Below are positions 29,386 through 53,059 of a DNA stretch of 64,000 nucleotides, piece after piece (within the stretch, counting starts at the first letter, position 1; each line of letters opens with the position of its first letter). The position numbers were made by a program, and so were the translations under genes. A model generated the notes under the pieces. That model saw only the letters and a list, made by a program, of their open reading frames with translations, did no database searches and had not been told where the DNA came from. This stretch comes from Thermus brockianus (GTDB taxonomy: Bacteria > Deinococcota > Deinococci > Deinococcales > Thermaceae). Location of the stretch: contig NZ_CP016313.1 in assembly GCF_001880325.1 (NCBI RefSeq), forward strand, positions 62,001-126,000, written 5' to 3'.

Positions 29386-29414
29386 TTGACAAGAAGACCC
29401 GGGGATGCTATCGT
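29386..29414 (+). promoter_or_regulatory. Promoter of the xylanase operon
   Basis: TTGACA (29386-29391), a 17-bp spacer and TATCGT (29409-29414) make a near-consensus housekeeping promoter. The predicted start falls at about 29420, the first base of the shared leader element. Confidence 0.65.
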
Positions 29415-29417
29415 TAA

Positions 29418-29472
29418 TTTGAGTCGGGAAAAAAAGAAACCCCTCACGAGGTCAACCTTACTGACCCGGCTC
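29418..29472 (+). promoter_or_regulatory. Shared xyl leader/operator element, copy 1
   Basis: Starts with tttgagtcgggaaa followed by an A-rich run, continues through ggtcaacct and ends with cccggctc. The outer ends gagtcggg (29421-29428) and cccggctc (29465-29472) can pair, with one G-U, as a closing stem. The same elements in the same order lie before xylF. It could be the operator of the ROK repressor at 38515 or a structured 5' leader. Confidence 0.6.
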
Positions 29473-29485
29473 CAATGGAGGGATG

Positions 29486-30559
29486 ATGAAGCTCTATCGG
29501 TACGGCTTGCCCCTATTAGTTGTGTGCGTTTCCTGGTTCGCTTCCCTAGTCTTAGGGCAGGTGGACTCGGTAACCCAGTTAGGTCCATTGAGGTCGCTTG
29601 CTGTGCGAGCAGGCATAGAGTTTGGCACAGCTGTTTCTGCATCTCATTTGGATGAAGATTCTGTTTATCGCACGCTTCTGAGTCGCGAGTTTTCGTCTAT
29701 TACCCCTGAAAACGAAATGAAGTGGGAGAGCTTGGAGCCTGAGCCAGGGCGGTATGTCTGGGAAAACGCTGATCGCATAGTTGCTTTTGCTCGTGCTCAT
29801 CAGCAAAGGATACGAGGCCACACGTTGGTATGGCATAATCAGATGCCTGTTTGGCTCAAGCCAGATGCTTTTTCGCCCGACGAGCTCCGTAAAATCCTCC
29901 AAAGGCATATTCAAACGGTGGTTGGGAGGTATAGGGGAAGTATTTGGCAGTGGGATGTAGTCAACGAGGCTTTCAATGAGGATGGTACGTTTCGCGATAC
30001 CCTTTGGTATAGAGCTTTTGGGGGCCCAGAGTATATTGCTTGGGCTTTCCGTTGGGCGAAGGAGGCAGACCCCCAGGCTCTGCTATTTTATAATGACTAC
30101 AATCTAGAATTCCCTTCGCCTAAGGCTGATGCTGTCCTCTCCTTCTTAGCACGCCTTAAAGCAGAGGGGGTGCCCATTGACGGTATAGGCCTCCAAGGAC
30201 ATATCAGTCTGCGTTATGGTTTTCCGCATGCCCAAGAGTTGCTGGACCACGTGCGGCGGTTTGTGGATGCGGGTTTTTACGTAGCTTTTACGGAGGTTGA
30301 TGTGCGCATGCCCCTTCCTCGCGATAACACAAAAGACTTGGCACAAGCCCAGGTGTATACCCAGATTTTGAGTACGTGCCTGGCCCTAAAGGGGAAGTGC
30401 CTCTCCTTCAGCATATGGGGTTTTCCAGACAAATACTCTTGGGTTCCAGGATTTTTCCCTGGGGAAGGAGCCGCAACTCCAATCGCGGATGATTATAGCC
30501 CGAAGCCGGCTTGGTATCAGATGGGGCTTCTTCTTTATGTAGCCGCCAAAGGGAGGTAG
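29486..30559 (+). CDS. xynA: Secreted GH10 endo-1,4-beta-xylanase
   Basis: 357 residues from the second of two adjacent ATGs, which has better spacing to ggaggg (29477-29482). A signal peptide precedes Leu-Gly-Gln at about residue 25. GH10 landmarks: ITPENEMKWESLEPEPG, GHTLVWHNQMPVWL, acid/base Glu161 in WQWDVVNEAF, and nucleophile Glu270 in VAFTEVDVRMP. A single catalytic domain without binding modules. It hydrolyses xylan outside the cell into oligosaccharides for the importer encoded downstream. Codon use and GC content are lower than in the flanking Thermus genes, which points to acquisition. Confidence 0.95.
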   Translation: MKLYRYGLPLLVVCVSWFASLVLGQVDSVTQLGPLRSLAVRAGIEFGTAVSASHLDEDSVYRTLLSREFSSITPENEMKWESLEPEPGRYVWENADRIVAFARAHQQRIRGHTLVWHNQMPVWLKPDAFSPDELRKILQRHIQTVVGRYRGSIWQWDVVNEAFNEDGTFRDTLWYRAFGGPEYIAWAFRWAKEADPQALLFYNDYNLEFPSPKADAVLSFLARLKAEGVPIDGIGLQGHISLRYGFPHAQELLDHVRRFVDAGFYVAFTEVDVRMPLPRDNTKDLAQAQVYTQILSTCLALKGKCLSFSIWGFPDKYSWVPGFFPGEGAATPIADDYSPKPAWYQMGLLLYVAAKGR

Positions 30560-30567
30560 GTGAACAC

Positions 30568-31977
30568 ATGGACTGGTTGGGCGTAAGAGGAGGCCAAATC
30601 GTAAACGTGGATGACGGTAAAGCCGTCTACTTAAGGGGGCTCGCTATAGGAGGTTGGCTTAACACAGAAAACTTCATTAACGGATACTCTGGCAATGAGT
30701 CTTCATGGCTCAAGGCTCTTCGAGAAGAGCTTGGCCAAGACGTAGCTGAGGCCTTTACCCAAGCAATTCGGGATCACTTTTTCACGGAGGAAGATGTCGC
30801 CTACATCCGCTCCCTAGGTGCGACGGCTATTCGCTTGCCATTTCACTGGCGTTATACGCTTGGGGAGAATTTGAGTTATATCGATCGCGCAATAGCTTGG
30901 GCTAAGCAACAAGGCCTCTATGTCATATTGGACTTCCACGCCGCTCCAGGGTGGCAGAATCCGGGTTGGCACTCGGATAATCCTTACGGCGTGGCTCTGT
31001 TTTGGCACGAACCTCACTACCAGGAACAACTCATCATCATGTGGCAAGTTTTGGCCGACCGCTATAGGGATGAGCCGACTGTGGCGGGCTACGATCTTCT
31101 CAACGAGCCATACGCGCCAGAGAATGAGACAGTAGTAGCCTTTTTTGGCAGGCTTATTTCGGCCGTTCGCGAGGTGGATCGGCGCCACATCCTTTTTATA
31201 GAGGGCAACCGATATGCGCAGGACTTTGCGGGATTTGAGCGTCTCCTGGAGCAAGACGACCAAATTGTGTTTAGTTCGCACAACTACATGGCACCCACCC
31301 ACTTGGGCGGGCGGTTCCCGGGCTGGCTGGAAGTTGAGGGCCGTCGTACTTGGATTGATCCAGCCTGGGTGGAATCCTATTACCTGGAGCGAAACAGGTG
31401 GTTCCTAGAGCGAAATCTTCCCTGTTATGTCGGGGAGTTTGGTGCTCTGTACGATGCGCCCTACGAGACACCCTCGCTTGGTGACTTGGCTAGATTGGCT
31501 GCACTGGACGTGCAGATGTCCGTATTCAATCGGTATGGGACTCACTGGACTCTTTGGACCTACAAAGATCTTGGCACCCAAGGGGTTCGGGTGTTAGATC
31601 CCTCGTCGAGATATTCTCGTTATTTAGCGCCATTCTTGACCATAAAGAGGCGATTGGGGGTTGATGAGTGGACGGCGCGGTCAAAAGGGCCTGTAGCTAA
31701 TGGTATTAGGAACTTGATTATGCAAATTGAGGCCGAAATCATTGAGCATTTCCGCGATTACGCTTTCCCGACGCGTTCCCTGGAGGAGGTTCTTCTCCTT
31801 TCTACCCTCTATGGGCATGTTGCTAATGCTCTAAATCCTTACTTTGCTCGTGCTTTCGCAGGACTGTCTGCGGCGGAGGTATATGAGGTTGTCAAGGAGG
31901 GGGTGAGATTTGAACACACAAAAGAGAGGCGGGTGTTAGCAGAGGTGCTTCGTAAGCGGCTAACAAACCTGAGCTAA
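30568..31977 (+). CDS. GH5-type glycoside hydrolase without signal peptide
   Basis: 469 residues from ATG 30568 (gggaggt upstream); an earlier open frame overlaps xynA. GH5 landmarks: AVYLRGLAIGGWLNTENF, ATAIRLPFHWRY, VILDFHAAPGWQNPGWHSDN, acid/base Glu180 in DLLNEPYAP, SSHNYMAP, and nucleophile Glu290 in CYVGEFGALYD. After the barrel (about 365) comes a helical extension of about 105 residues (IRNLIMQIEAEIIEHFRDYA) not usual for GH5. The lack of a signal peptide suggests it acts on imported oligosaccharides. Substrate specificity is unresolved; the context argues for xylan fragments. Confidence 0.85.
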   Translation: MDWLGVRGGQIVNVDDGKAVYLRGLAIGGWLNTENFINGYSGNESSWLKALREELGQDVAEAFTQAIRDHFFTEEDVAYIRSLGATAIRLPFHWRYTLGENLSYIDRAIAWAKQQGLYVILDFHAAPGWQNPGWHSDNPYGVALFWHEPHYQEQLIIMWQVLADRYRDEPTVAGYDLLNEPYAPENETVVAFFGRLISAVREVDRRHILFIEGNRYAQDFAGFERLLEQDDQIVFSSHNYMAPTHLGGRFPGWLEVEGRRTWIDPAWVESYYLERNRWFLERNLPCYVGEFGALYDAPYETPSLGDLARLAALDVQMSVFNRYGTHWTLWTYKDLGTQGVRVLDPSSRYSRYLAPFLTIKRRLGVDEWTARSKGPVANGIRNLIMQIEAEIIEHFRDYAFPTRSLEEVLLLSTLYGHVANALNPYFARAFAGLSAAEVYEVVKEGVRFEHTKERRVLAEVLRKRLTNLS

Positions 31978-32009
31978 GTAAGTGTAGGGAGTAAAGGAGG
32001 GTGGTACAG

Positions 32010-33278
32010 ATGCGGCGTGTAGTAGTTTGGGCTTTTTTGGCAGCGGCTTTGGTTTTCCCGGTTCGGGCACAAAACTTTGAGGTCTGGGCCATAAATTATT
32101 GGGTGATAGATCAGTTCTTCCCCAAGTTCATCCAAGAGTGGAACCAGCGGAACCCGAATGCTCAGGCTCGTTTGATTCAATTTGAAAATGACCCCTACAA
32201 ACAAAGGCTATTCGTTGCTTTGGGGGCAAAATCGGGGCCTGACGTGTTCTACAACTGGGGTGGCGGAGTCCTGGAATCCTATGTCAAGGCAGGTGCAGTG
32301 GAGGACATGACGTCTACCATAGATCCTGCTTGGAAGAACCGCTTCTTGGACCTTATGTGGCGTGGAGTGACATTTGACGGGCGAATTTACGGAGTTCCGA
32401 GCACTGAGCTCCAGCCAGTGGTTTGGTTCTACAATAAAGCGGTTTTCCGTCGGTTGAACCTCCAACCTCCCCAAACGTGGGCCCAATTGCTTTCCGTCGT
32501 AGACCGACTTAGAGGTGCTGGGGTCGTTCCCATAGTGGTTGCGGGGGGTAGCAAGTGGCCACTTCTCATGTACCAAGAGTACTTGGTGGACCGGCTTGGC
32601 GGGCCCGAGGTCTTTGAAAACATAACGACTAATCGCCCCGGGGCTTGGCGGCATCCTTCTGTGCTCCGGTCGGCGGAGATGATCTCTGAGCTCGTGGCCA
32701 AGAATCCTTTCCAACCAGGCTGGGAATCCGCTCAGTACGGTACGGGAACGGTACGAGCCCTTTTTGCTACCGGTAGGGCTGCTATGCAGCTTATGGGAGT
32801 CTGGGAATTCGGAGCTCTTGTCAACGAACACCCGGACTTCGTTAAGAGTGGGGATCTCGGTTGGTTTGCCTTCCCCCGGGTGGAGGGAGGCAGGGGGGAT
32901 CCCCGTAACTTGGCGGGGAACTTCACCAACTACTTTTCTGTTTCCTCTTTTGCCCGTAATAAGCCTGCTGCGATTCGTTTTCTGAGGGAGTTGTCCTTCT
33001 CTGATGACTACGTGCGTTTCCTCTTGAGGAACGGGGCGATCCCACCCACAAAAGGCATCCAAGCCCTTATCCGTCAAGAAGGTGCCTATCCAGATTGGCA
33101 GAGTTTTGTCTACGGCCTGGTGGAGCAGGCACCTTACTACGTTTTGTCTTGGGATCAGGCCCTGCCACCGCAATTGGCCCAGCCGTATCTGGACAACCTT
33201 CAGTTGCTCTTCCTAAGGCGCATCGCTCCTCAGGAATTCGTGGATCGTATGCAGCGGTTGGCAGATGGTCTAAGGTAA
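32010..33278 (+). CDS. Oligosaccharide ABC importer, family 1 binding protein
   Basis: 422 residues; start ATG 32010 is preceded by aaggaggg, better than the GTG nine bases upstream. Signal peptide RRVVVWAFLAAALVFPVRAQ. Family 1 (MalE-like) features: FIQEWNQRNPNAQARLIQF, GPDVFYNWGGGVLESYVKAG, GRIYGVPSTELQPVVWFYNK, and a hinge-region SVSSFARNKPAAIRFLREL. It probably binds xylo-oligosaccharides released by the xylanase. It is followed by the two permease genes and belongs to the low-GC block. Confidence 0.88.
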   Translation: MRRVVVWAFLAAALVFPVRAQNFEVWAINYWVIDQFFPKFIQEWNQRNPNAQARLIQFENDPYKQRLFVALGAKSGPDVFYNWGGGVLESYVKAGAVEDMTSTIDPAWKNRFLDLMWRGVTFDGRIYGVPSTELQPVVWFYNKAVFRRLNLQPPQTWAQLLSVVDRLRGAGVVPIVVAGGSKWPLLMYQEYLVDRLGGPEVFENITTNRPGAWRHPSVLRSAEMISELVAKNPFQPGWESAQYGTGTVRALFATGRAAMQLMGVWEFGALVNEHPDFVKSGDLGWFAFPRVEGGRGDPRNLAGNFTNYFSVSSFARNKPAAIRFLRELSFSDDYVRFLLRNGAIPPTKGIQALIRQEGAYPDWQSFVYGLVEQAPYYVLSWDQALPPQLAQPYLDNLQLLFLRRIAPQEFVDRMQRLADGLR

Positions 33279-33339
33279 GGGACATTGCGGGGGAAGGGAA
33301 AGACCACTCCTCTTCCCCCGCTTCTTTTAAGGAGGCGTA

Positions 33340-34191
33340 ATGCGGAATAGAGCGCTAGCCTTCTTTCTGCTGCTTCCCCTGGCCTTCTACGGGCTCACAG
33401 TCCTGCTCCCTGTCTTGAGCACCCTGGGTCTCAGTTTCTACCGTTGGGACGGTGTGGGATCTAGAGAATGGGCGGGCTGGGCGAACTGGATACGTCTTTT
33501 CGGTGATGAGCACTTCTACCATGCGCTCCGGGTGTCCTTTGCCTTCACTCTTATAGCGTGGCTGGTACAAACTCCTTTGGCCTTGGCTCTCGGGATCTAT
33601 TTTGCTCGAAAAGGCATTTTTCGCCAGGTTGCCTCTGTTTTTTCCTTTCTTCCTCTACTTTTTTCCAGCACCGCAGTTGGCACTATTTGGCTTTACATTT
33701 TGGATCCAAACTTGGGAGTGCTCTATTATTTGCCGTTTGTTCGAGGCTTAAATCCACTTGCGGAACAGGTTGCGCTGCTGACGTTGGCCCTGGTCACCTC
33801 CTGGCAGTACATTCCCTTTCACACGCTGCTTTACCAAGCAGCCTACCAGGGAATACCCCAAGATCTTTACGAAGCGGCCGCCCTGGACGGGGCAGAGGAT
33901 TGGGATGTCTTCTGGCATATTACGCTACCGCTTCTTCGGCCAACACTAATCACTTCTTCCTTAATTGTGGTTGTGGGTTCTCTAACGTACTTTGACCTTA
34001 TTTGGGTCATGACCCAAGGGGGACCGGGTTATGCTACGACAAATCTGCCGGTTTATCTTTATAGGCTCGCTTTCCAAAACCAAGAAGTGGCATACGGAGC
34101 TACGGTAGGGGCCTTCTTGGCACTCTTATCAGTCCTTATTTCCTGGGGTTTGGTAGGGCCTAGTGGTCTCGCGTCTCGGAGGAACTCATGA
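33340..34191 (+). CDS. Sugar ABC importer permease, MalF type
   Basis: 283 residues with six membrane segments starting ALAFFLLLPLAFYGLTVLLP. The EAA loop reads LYEAAALDGAEDWDVFWHITLPLL, and the downstream TQGGPGYATTNLPVYLYRLA is typical of the MalF/LacF branch. Ribosome site aaggagg precedes the ATG. It overlaps the next permease by 4 bp. No ATPase gene accompanies the pair, so a shared MsiK-type ATPase is expected elsewhere in the genome. Confidence 0.9.
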   Translation: MRNRALAFFLLLPLAFYGLTVLLPVLSTLGLSFYRWDGVGSREWAGWANWIRLFGDEHFYHALRVSFAFTLIAWLVQTPLALALGIYFARKGIFRQVASVFSFLPLLFSSTAVGTIWLYILDPNLGVLYYLPFVRGLNPLAEQVALLTLALVTSWQYIPFHTLLYQAAYQGIPQDLYEAAALDGAEDWDVFWHITLPLLRPTLITSSLIVVVGSLTYFDLIWVMTQGGPGYATTNLPVYLYRLAFQNQEVAYGATVGAFLALLSVLISWGLVGPSGLASRRNS

Positions 34192-35015
34192 AGGCGCTTG
34201 TAGGTAAGGTCGTTCGGGGGCTTGCTCCGGTGTTGGTCCTAGTGTGGAGCCTTATTTCGGCATTTCCTGTTTATTTCATGGCGATTACCAGTGTTAAAAC
34301 CCAAGCAGGTTACCTCCAGCCCCCCCCTTGGGGTTTGCCCCAGCAGTGGACCTGGGAAAACTATCGTGCAGTGCTTGAAGCGGGTTTTATTAGATACTTT
34401 GTGAATAGCGTTGTCGTAGCCCTCAGCACCGCTCTGATCTCGGTTTTCCTAAGCCTGTTGGCGGCCTACGCGGTAAATCGGGGTAAAACCCCTATTTACC
34501 GTCAAAGTCTTTATATCTTCCTTTTAGGTTTCGCTGTCCCTGCCCAGGCTACGGTGATTGCCCTGTACGCGTTGGTTAAGGCAAGCGGTCTTTACGACAG
34601 CCTTTGGGCAGTCATCTTGCCTCTCGCTGGATTTGCCATGCCAGTTACGGTCTTAGTGTTGACCAATTTTGTCAGAGAAATTCCGAGTACGCTCTTTGAG
34701 GCTATGGAGTTGGAAGGGGCGAGCCACGGGGCTGTTCTAAAACACCTCGTCTTGCCGTTATCCGTTCGGGCAGTCATCTCCATGGCCCTGTTCAACTTCA
34801 TAGGAGCCTGGAATGCTTTGCTTTTCCCCCTTATCCTAACGCAGAGCCCGGAGGTGCGTGTTCTTCCCATGGCGGTATGGACCTTCACAGGCCAATTCGG
34901 TATTAACGTGCCTGCGGTTATGGCGGCTGTGACTTTGTCTGCGCTGCCCCTCATCCTGGCTTACGTGTTCGCTAGAAGGGAAATTCTAAACGCACTAAGA
35001 GGGGGTTTCGTTTGA
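34188..35015 (+). CDS. Sugar ABC importer permease, MalG type
   Basis: 275 residues, six membrane segments. N-terminal VWSLISAFPVYFMAITSVKT, EAA loop LFEAMELEGASHGAVLKHLVLPL, and C-terminal LSALPLILAYVFARREILNA are typical of MalG/LacG. Completes the oligosaccharide importer. The stop codon overlaps a TTG that opens a 61-codon frame. Confidence 0.9.
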   Translation: MKALVGKVVRGLAPVLVLVWSLISAFPVYFMAITSVKTQAGYLQPPPWGLPQQWTWENYRAVLEAGFIRYFVNSVVVALSTALISVFLSLLAAYAVNRGKTPIYRQSLYIFLLGFAVPAQATVIALYALVKASGLYDSLWAVILPLAGFAMPVTVLVLTNFVREIPSTLFEAMELEGASHGAVLKHLVLPLSVRAVISMALFNFIGAWNALLFPLILTQSPEVRVLPMAVWTFTGQFGINVPAVMAAVTLSALPLILAYVFARREILNALRGGFV

Positions 35016-35329
35016 CCTCTGTCAAGATGACCTTCCTCTTGGGTTCGCGCGGGTTCGAATGGGTAGCTGGTAAGGGGCTACCGATTGCTTCCCAACCTGA
35101 TCTTCGCGGAGTAGTAGACCACCAGAGAGGACAATTAACCAGGCCGTGGAACGCCTGGGGGTTAAGTGGCGGAGGGGGCGGGATCACGGGAGGCTAGGTT
35201 TACTCCTGGGGGAGCCCTCCTTCTTCTGGGTCTGTTGGGGAGAGCACTCCATAAGGCCTCCGCCTCCTGTAAGTGGCACGGGGATTTCTTGAGCTTATCG
35301 GAACTTCGGGAAGAGGGTAAGCCGGGGGG
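35016..35329 (+). other. Non-coding gap or remnant between oligosaccharide importer and xylF
   Basis: A 61-codon frame (35012-35197) starts at a TTG overlapping the permease stop and reads MTSVKMTFLLGSRGFEWVAG, then becomes glycine-rich and ends. I do not recognise it; it could be the 5' end of a deleted gene that once belonged to the operon. The rest up to 35329 contains no convincing gene. GC content rises again in this stretch. Confidence 0.4.
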
Positions 35330-35358
35330 TTGATATTTGGGGTGTTCTGAGATATATT
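35330..35358 (+). promoter_or_regulatory. Promoter of the xylF operon
   Basis: TTGATA (35330-35335), a 17-bp spacer and TATATT (35353-35358). Predicted transcription start at about 35365, again at the first bases of the shared leader element. Confidence 0.7.
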
Positions 35359-35361
35359 TAG

Positions 35362-35419
35362 TTTGAGTCGGGAAACAAAGAAAAATTTCCCAAACTCCTG
35401 GTCAACCTCTTCCCGGCTC
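35362..35419 (+). promoter_or_regulatory. Shared xyl leader/operator element, copy 2
   Basis: Positions 35362-35383 match 29418-29439 with one mismatch. Then gggaaa and tttccc (35370-35375, 35386-35391) form an inner inverted repeat, ggtcaacct follows, and cccggctc (35412-35419) can pair with gagtcggg (35365-35372). Located at the predicted transcription start, 16 bp before the xylF ATG. Confidence 0.65.
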
Positions 35420-35434
35420 AGTAGGAGGTTGCGT

Positions 35435-36481
35435 ATGCGGAATGGGTGGCTTGGTGTTTTGGCGTTGCTGGCCTTTGCAGGGGGGACTTGGGCCCAACAA
35501 CGCCCATTGGTGGTGGGTGTAAGTTGGGCTAACTTCCAGGAGGAGCGTTGGCGGCGGGACGAGGCGGCCATAAAGGAGCAGCTGGCTCGCATGGGCGCTC
35601 AGTATGTGAGCACCGATGCGCAAAGTTCTGCAGAAAAGCAGCTTAACGATGTGGACAGCCTTATTTCCCGAGGGGTAAATGCCCTCATCATCCTTGCTTG
35701 GGACAAGGACGCTATTCTTCCCGCGGTCCAAAAGGCTCGCGCAGCTGGCATCCCCGTGGTGGCTTATGACCGCCTAATTGCCGATCCATACGCCTTCTAT
35801 ATTTCTTTTGACAACGTGGAGGTCGGAAGGCAACAAGCCAGGGCTGTGTACCAGGTGCGGCCTCGAGGAAACTATGTCTTCATCTTGGGTGCGCCCACTG
35901 ATCCTAACGCGGATCTATTACACCAAGGACAGCTTGAAATCCTACAACCTGCCATTGATCGGGGTGAGATTCGTGTGGTGGGCAAGCAGTATACGGAGGG
36001 TTGGCGTCCGGAAGTGGCCCAGCGCAATATGGAACAAATTCTGGCGGCCAACCGAAACCAAGTAGATGCGGTGGTGGCCTCCAATGACGGTACCGCAGGG
36101 GGTGTGATCGCCGCTCTTGCCTCGGTGGGTTTGGCAGGACGCGTGCCCGTTTCCGGCCAAGACGGCGATTGGCCTGCCTTAAACCGGGTGGCTCGAGGAT
36201 TGCAGACCGTAAGCGTTTGGAAGGATGCCCGAGAGCTTGGGCGTCGCGCCGCAGAGATTGCGGTGCTCCTAGCGCGGGGAACTCGTCCAGACCAAATCTT
36301 AGGTGCTCAGAGGTTCCGTGTCCCGGGGGACCCTAGGGGTACCGTGGTGAATGCGGTGCTATTGCGGCCTATTCCCATTACACGCGACAACTTGCATATC
36401 GTCCTCGAGGCCGGTTGGATCACGAAAGAAGCGCTTTGCCAGGGTGTAAGCGGGCCGCAGGCGCCTGCAGTTTGCCGCTAG
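35435..36481 (+). CDS. xylF: D-xylose ABC importer binding protein
   Basis: 348 residues from ATG 35435 with taggagg upstream. Signal peptide [20 protein letters not shown]. Periplasmic-binding-protein family (sugar-binding, LacI-like fold) with XylF blocks [40 protein letters not shown] and [14 protein letters not shown]-type hinge (here [17 protein letters not shown]). Captures xylose for XylHG. Followed by a strong hairpin that should keep its mRNA level above that of xylH. Confidence 0.92.
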
Positions 36482-38514: not shown

Positions 38515-39648
38515 ATGCGGATCAGTATGCCTAACGCTTCCGAAATCCCCAAAGGCGGTACCCGGCAGCTTCGCCGTTGGCACAAGGCTCGTATTCTAGA
38601 CCATTTGCGTAAGCAACCCGGGCTTTCTCGGAGCGACCTGGCCAAGCACCTAGAGCTCTCTCCCTCAGCCGTTACGGAGGTCGTGGCCGAGCTTCTAGAG
38701 GAGGGCCTGCTTTTGGAACGGCCTCTTCCTCCCCAGGGCCAGGGCCGGCCTTCCATCGCCCTCGAGGTAGAGGGCGAAAGGAACATGGTTCTGGCCTGGG
38801 AAATCGATGTGGACCGGATGGCCGTGGCCCTTATGAGCCTAGCGGGGGATGTGCGGGTGAAGACGGTCCTGCCCCCGGCGCCGAAAGATCCGCAAGAGGC
38901 GCTAGCCCTCCTGGCGGCGGCCACGCACCCCTTGCTTTCGGGTAGGCGGGTTCTCGGCGTAGGTGTTGCCGTGCCGGGCCTTGTGGAACCCGAAGAAGGT
39001 CACCTGACCCTGGCACCGAACCTGGGTTGGCAAGACCTGGCCTTGGGGGAGATGGTACAGAAGGTTCTGGCAAGCTTGGGGCTTGCAGGAGTTCCCCTCA
39101 TAGTGGAAAACGAGGCGAATGCCGCAGCGTACGGCCTTTATGCCTTGGGGGGGTGGGAAGTAGATCACTGCGTGTACCTGAACTTGGGCGTAGGCGTGGG
39201 AGGCGGCGTCGTAGTGGACCGGAAGGTTTACCACGGGGCCCGTTTTCACGCGGGTGAGGTGGGCCATATCCCGCTGAACCCCGATGGGCCTTCTTGTGGT
39301 TGCGGCAAACAAGGATGCGCCGAAGTCTATTTGAGTTTTCGCCGATGGAATGCGAACGCTTCCAAGGAACTCCTGTCCGAGATGGGAGACAAGCTGGCGC
39401 ACCTTTGCGCCATCGTGTTGAGCACGCTGGATCCGAACCTTATCGTCCTAGGGGGACCTTTGGTGGGGGCTACAGGGGAGGAGCTTCTTCGCGAGGTTCG
39501 GCGAAGGCTTCCTAAATACGCCTTGCGGGTTCACTCTCCTGAACAGGTTGTTCTTTCTCCTTTTGGGCGGGAAGCCGCTCTTCTGGGGGCAGGCGCTTTG
39601 GCTGCCGCCCAGTTCATAGATCAAATGGCTTTTGCGGAGGTGGTTTAG
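38515..39648 (+). CDS. xylR: ROK-family transcriptional repressor (XylR-like)
   Basis: 377 residues. N-terminal winged helix: [20 protein letters not shown] and [19 protein letters not shown]. The ROK sugar-kinase-like domain has [20 protein letters not shown], the zinc motif GCGKQGCAE, and the family block [20 protein letters not shown]. In many bacteria ROK-type XylR represses xyl genes and is released by xylose. The paired leader elements at 29418 and 35362 are the obvious candidate binding sites. Sits inside the operon it probably controls. Confidence 0.88.
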
Positions 39649-52764: not shown

Positions 52765-52905
52765 AATACCTGGGGTACCCTGGCCGCGATGCCAGGCCGA
52801 CAGGTCTGGACGCCTTTGGGCGGTGGGGGAAGTCCGGTGAGAGTCCGGCGCTGTCCCGCAACGGTAACCGGCCCCCTGGCCGGAAGCCCGAGTACCCGCT
52901 TCGCG
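52765..52905 (+). promoter_or_regulatory. Cobalamin (B12) riboswitch
   Basis: The diagnostic core is present: ggggaagtccggtgagagtc (52825-52844), continuing cggcgctgtcccgcaacggt. The B12 box follows as aagcccgagtacccgc (52884-52899), and gggtac near 52773 can pair with gtaccc in the box to close the aptamer. The 150 bases between the aptamer and the first start codon form the expression platform. The platform has no clear T-run terminator, so translational control is likely. Confidence 0.9.
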
Positions 52906-53059
52906 GCCCTACCCCGTAGCCCTCGAGGCAAGGGTGAAGGTGGTGATGCGCATGGGACCTTGACCTAAACCCTTCCCCCAAAACCCGCAAGGACGGGTGT
53001 ACGGCTCATCTAAGGAGCCAACGGCCCTAGGCTTTTGTCCGGTTTATGAGGAGGTGTTC

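Follow-up and report, generated by a model that had tools for sequence, protein, structure and literature searches.

A duplicated leader element at the xylanase and xylF promoters of Thermus brockianus: a candidate XylR operator and predicted 5' mRNA stem

The megaplasmid pTB1 of Thermus brockianus GE-1 includes the stretch of 64,000 nucleotides (nt) analyzed here, which is referred to as the window (contig NZ_CP016313.1, positions 62,001 to 126,000). By Pfam assignment it encodes a GH10 xylanase, a GH5 family member, an ABC transporter, xylF, xylH, xylG, a ROK-family regulator and xylA; xylB is the reading frame that follows xylA and takes its name from annotated Thermus homologues. The names xyn10, xylF, xylH, xylR, xylA and xylB are used for this pTB1 region in PMC5292009, a source available in part, in the main text of which a word search did not find the term 'promoter'. 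The subject of this study is a short element that occurs twice in the window, at the predicted transcription start sites of the xylanase gene and of xylF (Table 1), and that was examined as an operator for the regulator XylR and as a structured leader RNA. XylR, a ROK repressor with a helix–turn–helix (HTH) domain, is encoded alongside the xyl genes; its gene is directly followed by xylA and then xylB, and in Thermus it sits inside the xylF operon. The protein matches the Pfam ROK family (3.3e-41) and HTH families and resembles Lmo0178, Mlc and a XylR chain in the PDB, and no NCBIfam equivalog reaches its cut-off.

Table 1. Positions in the window of the genes and predicted features discussed in the text
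Feature	Positions	Strand	Basis or detail
Predicted sigma-70-type xylanase promoter	29386..29414	+	TTGACA 29386, 17 bp, TATCGT 29409
Predicted XylR (ROK) operator at +1, TTAATTTGAGTCGGGAAAAAA	29414..29434	+	Exact pattern; 19/21 to G009 xylR-promoter element
RNA stem 5' strand, GAGTCGGG, from predicted +1 (xylanase)	29421..29428	+	Stem comparison
RNA stem 3' strand, CCCGGCTC (xylanase)	29465..29472	+	Stem comparison
Ribosome-binding site GGAGGG, shortly 5' of ATG 29483 and ATG 29486	29477..29482	+	Sequence
GH10 xylanase gene (xyn10)	29483..30559	+	Pfam PF00331
Predicted xylF promoter	35330..35358	+	TTGATA 35330, 17 bp, TATATT 35353
Predicted XylR (ROK) operator at +1, TTAGTTTGAGTCGGGAAACAA	35358..35378	+	Pattern and similarity to xylR element
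RNA stem 5' strand, GAGTCGGGAA, 10 bp in xylF leader	35365..35374	+	Stem comparison
RNA stem 3' strand, TTCCCGGCTC (xylF)	35410..35419	+	Stem comparison
Ribosome-binding site AGGAGG (xylF)	35423..35428	+	Sequence
xylF, D-xylose-binding protein	35435..36481	+	NCBIfam TIGR02634 above cut-off
xylR, ROK regulator with N-terminal HTH; predicted to bind both operators	38515..39648	+	Pfam ROK and HTH

The duplicated element is real. As the initial annotation had claimed, positions 29418–29439 and 35362–35383 agree at 21 of 22 bases, and both copies are followed by ggtcaacct (at 29450 and 35400) and by cccggctc (at 29465–29472 and 35412–35419). Its further observations, that both copies directly follow promoters and that their outer parts can pair, also held: −35 and −10 boxes with 17 bp spacers precede both, the G of GAG lying 7 nt past the last −10 base in each, and GAGTCGGG can form 8 bp, one of them G–U, with CCCGGCTC. 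The 14-mer TTTGAGTCGGGAAA has two exact copies in the window, both at the predicted +1 of the xylanase and xylF transcripts, and the same two exact copies are the yield of the whole genome, together with eight sites that carry two mismatches (control, 7). The two-part pattern GAGTCGGG-N10-40-GGTCAACC matches twice in the genome (control, 0), and the operator pattern TTANTTT-N7-GAAANAA matches exactly twice, at both sites. The many unrelated copies that a genome-wide search might have returned were thus not found for the exact element. Since mismatch-tolerant counts were at chance level, with five occurrences of TTTGAGTCGGGAAA at up to three mismatches in the window (4.6 expected) and ten of TTANTTT-N7-GAAANAA at up to two mismatches in the genome (13 in the control), only the exact element is informative and specific.

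The distribution of the element was followed through 50 Thermaceae genomes, which were searched for xylF (below, G-numbers denote genomes and L-numbers the loci compared). Full-length xylF (at least 59% identity) is present in 20 of these genomes, and in 19 of the 20 the pattern GAGTCG...CGRCTC lies upstream of it, directly after a sigma-70-type promoter; the relatives concerned include Calidithermus roseus and Meiothermus luteus, and the same leader is found on four T. thermophilus plasmids. The sole exception is G010, in which xylF has a LacI-type neighbour gene. The distance of 35 from the −35 box to GAG at the xylanase promoter recurs in 13 of 20 leaders, and GAG lies 34–37 nt from the first −35 base in 18 of the 20, the other two (L023 and L030) having been misplaced by the script. 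A GH10 xylanase close to that of the window was found, among the 50 genomes, in T. brockianus only (others, at most 51% identity), and its leader is 100% conserved on a second T. brockianus plasmid. The plasmid matches H7, H9 and H12 were left out of the comparison, and plasmid pVV8 of T. thermophilus HB8 (L071), in which an insertion element replaces the conserved leader, was left out of the counts; an ISTth4 transposase gene there (L071, 925–2173) has its end 27 bp upstream of where xylF is annotated to begin. Upstream of xylF in G007 (L134, 8656–10377), a gene for an FG-GAP/UnbV-ASPIC repeat protein directly adjoins, and open frames of similar size occupy this place in several other Meiothermus-group loci.

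The xylR promoters of related genera bear on the operator reading. In Meiothermus and Calidithermus, xylR–xylA–xylB lies apart from xylF (as in G009) or follows xylF under a promoter of its own (as in G013), and an element is found near +1 of the xylR promoter. It reads TTATTTT-GAGTCGG-GAAATAA in G009, G018 and G022 (Meiothermus), in the same place relative to the promoter; TTATTTT-TAGTCGA-GAAATAA in G017; TTATTTC-GTAACTA-GAAATAA in G013 and G004; and TTATTTC-TGCACGA-GAAATAA in G016, with a shifted form in G011. Both T. brockianus 21 bp elements are identical to the G009/G018/G022 form at 19 of 21 positions, and among the 127,960 21-mers of the window only these two sites reach at least 15 matches to it. 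The shared site is present at xylF in 14 genomes that possess XylR, and all eight readable Meiothermus/Calidithermus xylR promoters match the pattern, which was drawn from these very sites (the xylR loci L115 and L118, of G008 and G015, were unreadable and stand outside this count). Four Thermus-type XylRs, and six of seven from Meiothermus/Calidithermus, share the presumed recognition-helix segment LSPSAVTE without change, the seventh having LSPSVVTE; in G001 and G003, the ROK proteins of which are about 50–51% identical and differ at the HTH segment, the promoters do not contain the element.

From these sequence comparisons, the 21 bp element is probably the operator of XylR. Palindromy exceeds that of shuffled sequences at eight of nine Meiothermus/Calidithermus xylF sites with XylR (P ≤ 0.03; G017, 0.22) and at four of eight xylR sites (P ≤ 0.035). 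However, several results weigh against this assignment. The dyad of the Thermus-type xylF sites is no better than that of shuffled A/T-rich sequence at any of nine sites (P 0.22–0.84), and the dyads of the G009/G018/G022 xylR sites also fall within the shuffles (P 0.14–0.22). In addition, the likeness of the T. brockianus elements to the other xylR forms is lower, with 17 of 21 positions shared with that of G017 and 13 of 21 with those of G013 and G016, and the exact Bacillus-type GTTT-N7-AAAC is absent, xylF having GTTT-N8-AAAC and the xylanase gene ATTT...AAAA. Because palindromy was found at none of the nine Thermus-type sites, the case for the operator in Thermus comes from likeness to the xylR element of Meiothermus instead of from the dyad.

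The transcribed part of the element, GAGUCGGG, is also the 5' strand of an RNA stem with which the transcript is predicted to begin, and its partner CCCGGCUC lies 44–47 nt downstream of it, shortly before the ribosome-binding site. Twenty-four leaders were compared (19 of the 20 xylF genomes, the four T. thermophilus plasmids and the xylanase gene), nearly all of which had been located by an expression requiring both strands; L073 was placed from sequence. With the 5' strand fixed at the predicted +1, an uninterrupted stem of 7–10 bp, with the conserved CTC as its far end, is formed in 24 of 24 leaders (P 0.000–0.053 against shuffles in each). The 5' strand occupies the predicted 5' terminus in every leader; the stem spans 43–57 nt in total and encloses a variable loop of about 27–39 nt. 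The leaders aligned for the covariation analysis numbered 21, of which 20 are distinct; 94.4% of the 160 cells in this alignment are paired, a share that falls to 53% or 48% when the partner is shifted by a single column. Pair 7 is A–U in 12 leaders and G–C in 8, G–C being the form of the Thermus-type leaders and A–U that of the others; pair 4 is U–G in 18 and U–A in 2, pair 2 is A–U in 19 and G–U in 1, and pair 8 is G–C in 8, A–U in 3 and unpaired in 9. The covariation check that the initial annotation had proposed gave a divided answer. None of 500 shuffles reached the covariation score or the count of cells altered on both sides, scores of a kind that the relatedness of the leaders inflates; against the stem, the number of pairs changed on both sides and the pair-type count were reached by 440 and 500 of 500. 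Furthermore, the number of variable pairs is small, and the main change coincides with a single divide, that between Thermus with G049 and the other genera.

Few independent compensatory events, pair counts within the shuffles and the poor predicted folding of some Thermus leaders would be expected if the xylF leader were simply homologous by descent and its 3' strand had been kept by chance or for some other reason. This by-product account is considered very unlikely, as the loops have diverged too far to be aligned between genera and yet both strands stay complementary, with 7–10 uninterrupted pairs kept in every leader. A stem model run over 111 Deinococcota genomes (E ≤ 1) found 19 places in 18 genomes, all of them xylF leaders or the T. 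brockianus xylanase leader and all within the known set; only G022 and G033 lay outside the training set, and one training sequence, that of G012, was lost under the stricter filters used, so weak members elsewhere could be missed. A two-part promoter pattern matched in 46 of the 111 genomes, in Thermaceae and in other families, and its reversed control also matched many; the matches away from xylF and the xylanase gene were judged by eye to be chance. A wider contig search gave 80 loci, nearly all from Proteobacteria, of which L146, L147 and L224 were examined. Outside Thermaceae, the regions upstream of xylF in Trueperaceae (L224) and Deinococcus (L245) contained neither the operator (by scan) nor the stem (by eye).

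Operator and stem can be told apart at promoters that have one of the two. At the xylR promoters the operator element occurs without a stem partner, and none of the eight readable xylR leaders has a stem of at least 7 bp at +1. In G009, GAGTCGGG is unpaired at xylR and GAGTCGA is paired with TCGGCTC at xylF; because the same repressor presumably serves both promoters, the change at xylF appears to follow pairing and not repressor specificity. In five genomes (G002, G006, G007, G012 and G020) there is no XylR orthologue, the best-scoring ROK matches being at most 36% identical, and yet the stem is retained; in three of them, G006, G012 and G020, the A/T half-sites do not surpass shuffled sequence. 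G007 retains a good palindrome and G002 has a different one, and another regulator may act in these two genomes; ten proteins encoded near xylF in G002, G006, G007 and G012 showed no regulator domain, one of them being without a Pfam match. A perfect 11 bp inverted repeat, CTACCCTGAGT...ACTCAGGGTAG, was observed at the predicted xylF start site of G002 (L138, 8082–8109).

The absence of the stem from xylR leaders and its retention in five genomes without a XylR orthologue leave it unexplained by an operator alone. It is therefore judged unlikely that the element acts as DNA only, with the 3' strand as a second inverted XylR half-site for looping or cooperativity and a functionless RNA stem. 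Such an arrangement would agree with the resemblance of GAGCCGGGAA, the minus-strand reading of the 3' strand, to the +1 element, and with the occurrence of the unpaired element at xylR promoters. However, the second strand is missing from the eight readable xylR leaders, the 43–57 nt span has no visible helical phasing and the pair at position 4 is the strand-asymmetric U–G in 18 of 20 distinct leaders. The pairing itself could be extended to −1 in 15 of 24 leaders, as the operator-only account would allow, but is not in the other 9 (both by eye). The initial annotation had posed a ROK operator and a structured leader RNA as alternatives; the sequence comparisons support both, the former through the 19 of 21 match to the Meiothermus xylR-promoter element and the latter through the conserved outer stem with compensatory change.

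The exceptional genome, G010, belongs to the Meiothermus group. Its xylF promoter (L139, 8851–10113) is without a XylR-type element, contains ACACCGGTGT and is accompanied by a divergent gene for a LacI-type regulator, the nearest NCBIfam models of which are CytR and RbsR, below cut-off; this arrangement suggests a repressor swap at xylF. A 7 bp 5'-anchored pairing is present there, but it was not counted as a stem because it is not predicted to fold and because such pairings also occur at two non-xyl promoters.

Predicted folding of the leaders is uneven. Stem probabilities at 37 and 70 °C, respectively, are 0.90–1.00 and 0.21–0.91 for the eight folded Meiothermus/Calidithermus leaders with XylR, 0.68–0.99 and 0.32–0.91 for the five leaders of genomes without it, and 0.00–1.00 and 0.02–0.94 for eight Thermus-type leaders, with 0.00–0.12 and 0.02–0.19 for those of T. 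thermophilus. The ribosome-binding site lies outside the stem itself, at distances that begin at 3 nt and exceed 80 nt in G002 (3–4 nt in both T. brockianus leaders), and is partly covered by other predicted pairing. Half of the 20 leaders (10) at 37 °C, and 12 of the 20 at 70 °C, give this site a mean unpaired probability of at least 0.5; the values at 37 and 70 °C are 0.21 and 0.48 for the T. brockianus xylanase leader and 0.66 and 0.60 for that of xylF.

The remaining leaders, in which this probability is below 0.5 (at 37 °C, 10 of the 20; at 70 °C, 8), could be taken to indicate a sugar-responsive riboswitch or translational switch, in which the 5' strand would alternate between distal and internal partners and so change access to the ribosome-binding site. 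An internal pyrimidine-rich stretch in some Thermus leaders could indeed pair with GAGUCGGG (GGGAAA/TTTCCC in T. brockianus xylF), and the 3' strand closely adjoins the ribosome-binding site in both T. brockianus leaders. We nevertheless regard a switch as quite unlikely. No loop core is conserved across genera, only the stem and the following A-rich bases being so; an inner helix is predicted for Meiothermus/Calidithermus and not for Thermus; the distance to the ribosome-binding site varies, as given above; and no Rfam family reached its gathering score at the leaders in a scan of the window. The same scan was able to detect riboswitches, since it found a cobalamin (AdoCbl) riboswitch at 52805–52945 on the plus strand, above the gathering score. 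When the xylF leader of T. brockianus and a single Meiothermus leader were compared with Rfam under relaxed limits, all matches stayed far below gathering (best E 0.0035, on the opposite strand). Neither search gave anything usable, and nothing points to a riboswitch. The regulatory-switch part of the structured-leader proposal is so far not supported. A pseudoknot that would join the pyrimidine-rich loop to the ribosome-binding site was also dropped, as G006, G007, G012 and G020 seem by eye to have no matching stretch; ribosome-binding sites barely vary among the leaders and are uninformative for covariation in such a pseudoknot.

The reading preferred here, which we hold to be somewhat probable as a whole, is that one element plays two roles, as a XylR operator in DNA and as a 5' stem in mRNA. 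XylR bound near the start site would block RNA polymerase and xylose would release it, a proposal that draws on ROK biology in Bacillus, where XylR binds a GTTT-N7-AAAC operator when xylose is absent (PMC9104551, in part), and in T. maritima, the XylR of which serves as a ROK precedent (PMC3750489, in part). Transcription would start at the G of GAG, and the GAGUCGGG–CCCGGCUC stem would form at the extreme 5' end of the mRNA. The stem would mainly shield the transporter and xylanase messages from 5'-end-dependent decay and would not itself extend over the ribosome-binding site; this role is favoured because every leader has the strand at its predicted 5' terminus, and because the ribosome-binding site lies at a variable distance and outside the stem. 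Stems at the 5' terminus stabilize the ompA, papA and aprE mRNAs (references of PMC3997798, available in part), and T. thermophilus RNase J reads the 5' monophosphate (PMC3997798, in part). Copying of the xylF leader is the probable origin of the xylanase leader and would have brought the xylanase gene into the XylR regulon.

Besides the weak dyads and the pair counts, the predicted folds weigh against this dual role. At 70 °C the stem is part of the minimum-energy fold in 14 of the 21 leaders folded, with probabilities of 0.34 for T. brockianus xylF and 0.74 for its xylanase leader, and of 0.05, 0.02 and 0.19 for T. thermophilus HB5002, HB5018 and SNM7-6. The modelled T. thermophilus values speak against a stable stem in that species, unless it forms first during transcription. 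In addition, 4 of 26 other promoters in the compared loci also have a 7 bp 5'-anchored pairing, two of them being xylF promoters (G017, in a shifted register, and G010) and two non-xyl.

Known XylR systems of Bacillus/Paenibacillus (PMC9104551) and Clostridium (PMC2873477), as far as the available parts of these sources describe them, are similar in having a ROK repressor gene beside xylAB and A/T-rich promoter half-sites at several xyl promoters, including that of xylR; their operators are GTTT-N7-AAAC and a 25 bp inverted repeat, respectively. In contrast to both, the Thermaceae site is centred near +1, has a degenerate dyad in T. brockianus (GTTT-N8-AAAC at xylF) and shares its central GAGTCGG with the RNA stem at xylF; unlike the Bacillus operator, the Meiothermus/Calidithermus xylR site is TTATTTY-N7-GAAATAA in seven of eight loci. 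The leaders resemble those of ompA, papA and aprE (PMC3997798, in part) in having a stem at or near the mRNA 5' end with the ribosome-binding site downstream; they differ in that the first strand overlaps a predicted operator and the loop is long and variable, and stabilization is here inferred. Like riboswitch or attenuator leaders they are conserved and structured, but they have no conserved ligand-binding core, no terminator was seen and there is no Rfam match. Among the matches listed in the literature searched, which were available in part, no Thermaceae XylR operator or xylF leader is described; databases such as RegPrecise were not covered.

It is rather doubtful that a single sequence under two selective constraints couples repression to the fate of the mRNA that escapes it. 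Were this so, the transporter and xylanase mRNAs might, for example, be the only long-lived ones, or the stem might respond to a xylose metabolite or an RNA-binding protein. The analysis provides a concrete and testable candidate for the XylR operator of Thermaceae, and a family-wide 5' mRNA stem for which the present searches of Rfam release 15 gave no match. Thermus is a host for heat-stable enzymes, and the promoter with its leader is a candidate xylose-inducible, possibly message-stabilizing, expression cassette for this genus. The findings also suggest that a xylanase gene can join the regulon by acquiring the leader of a transporter gene.

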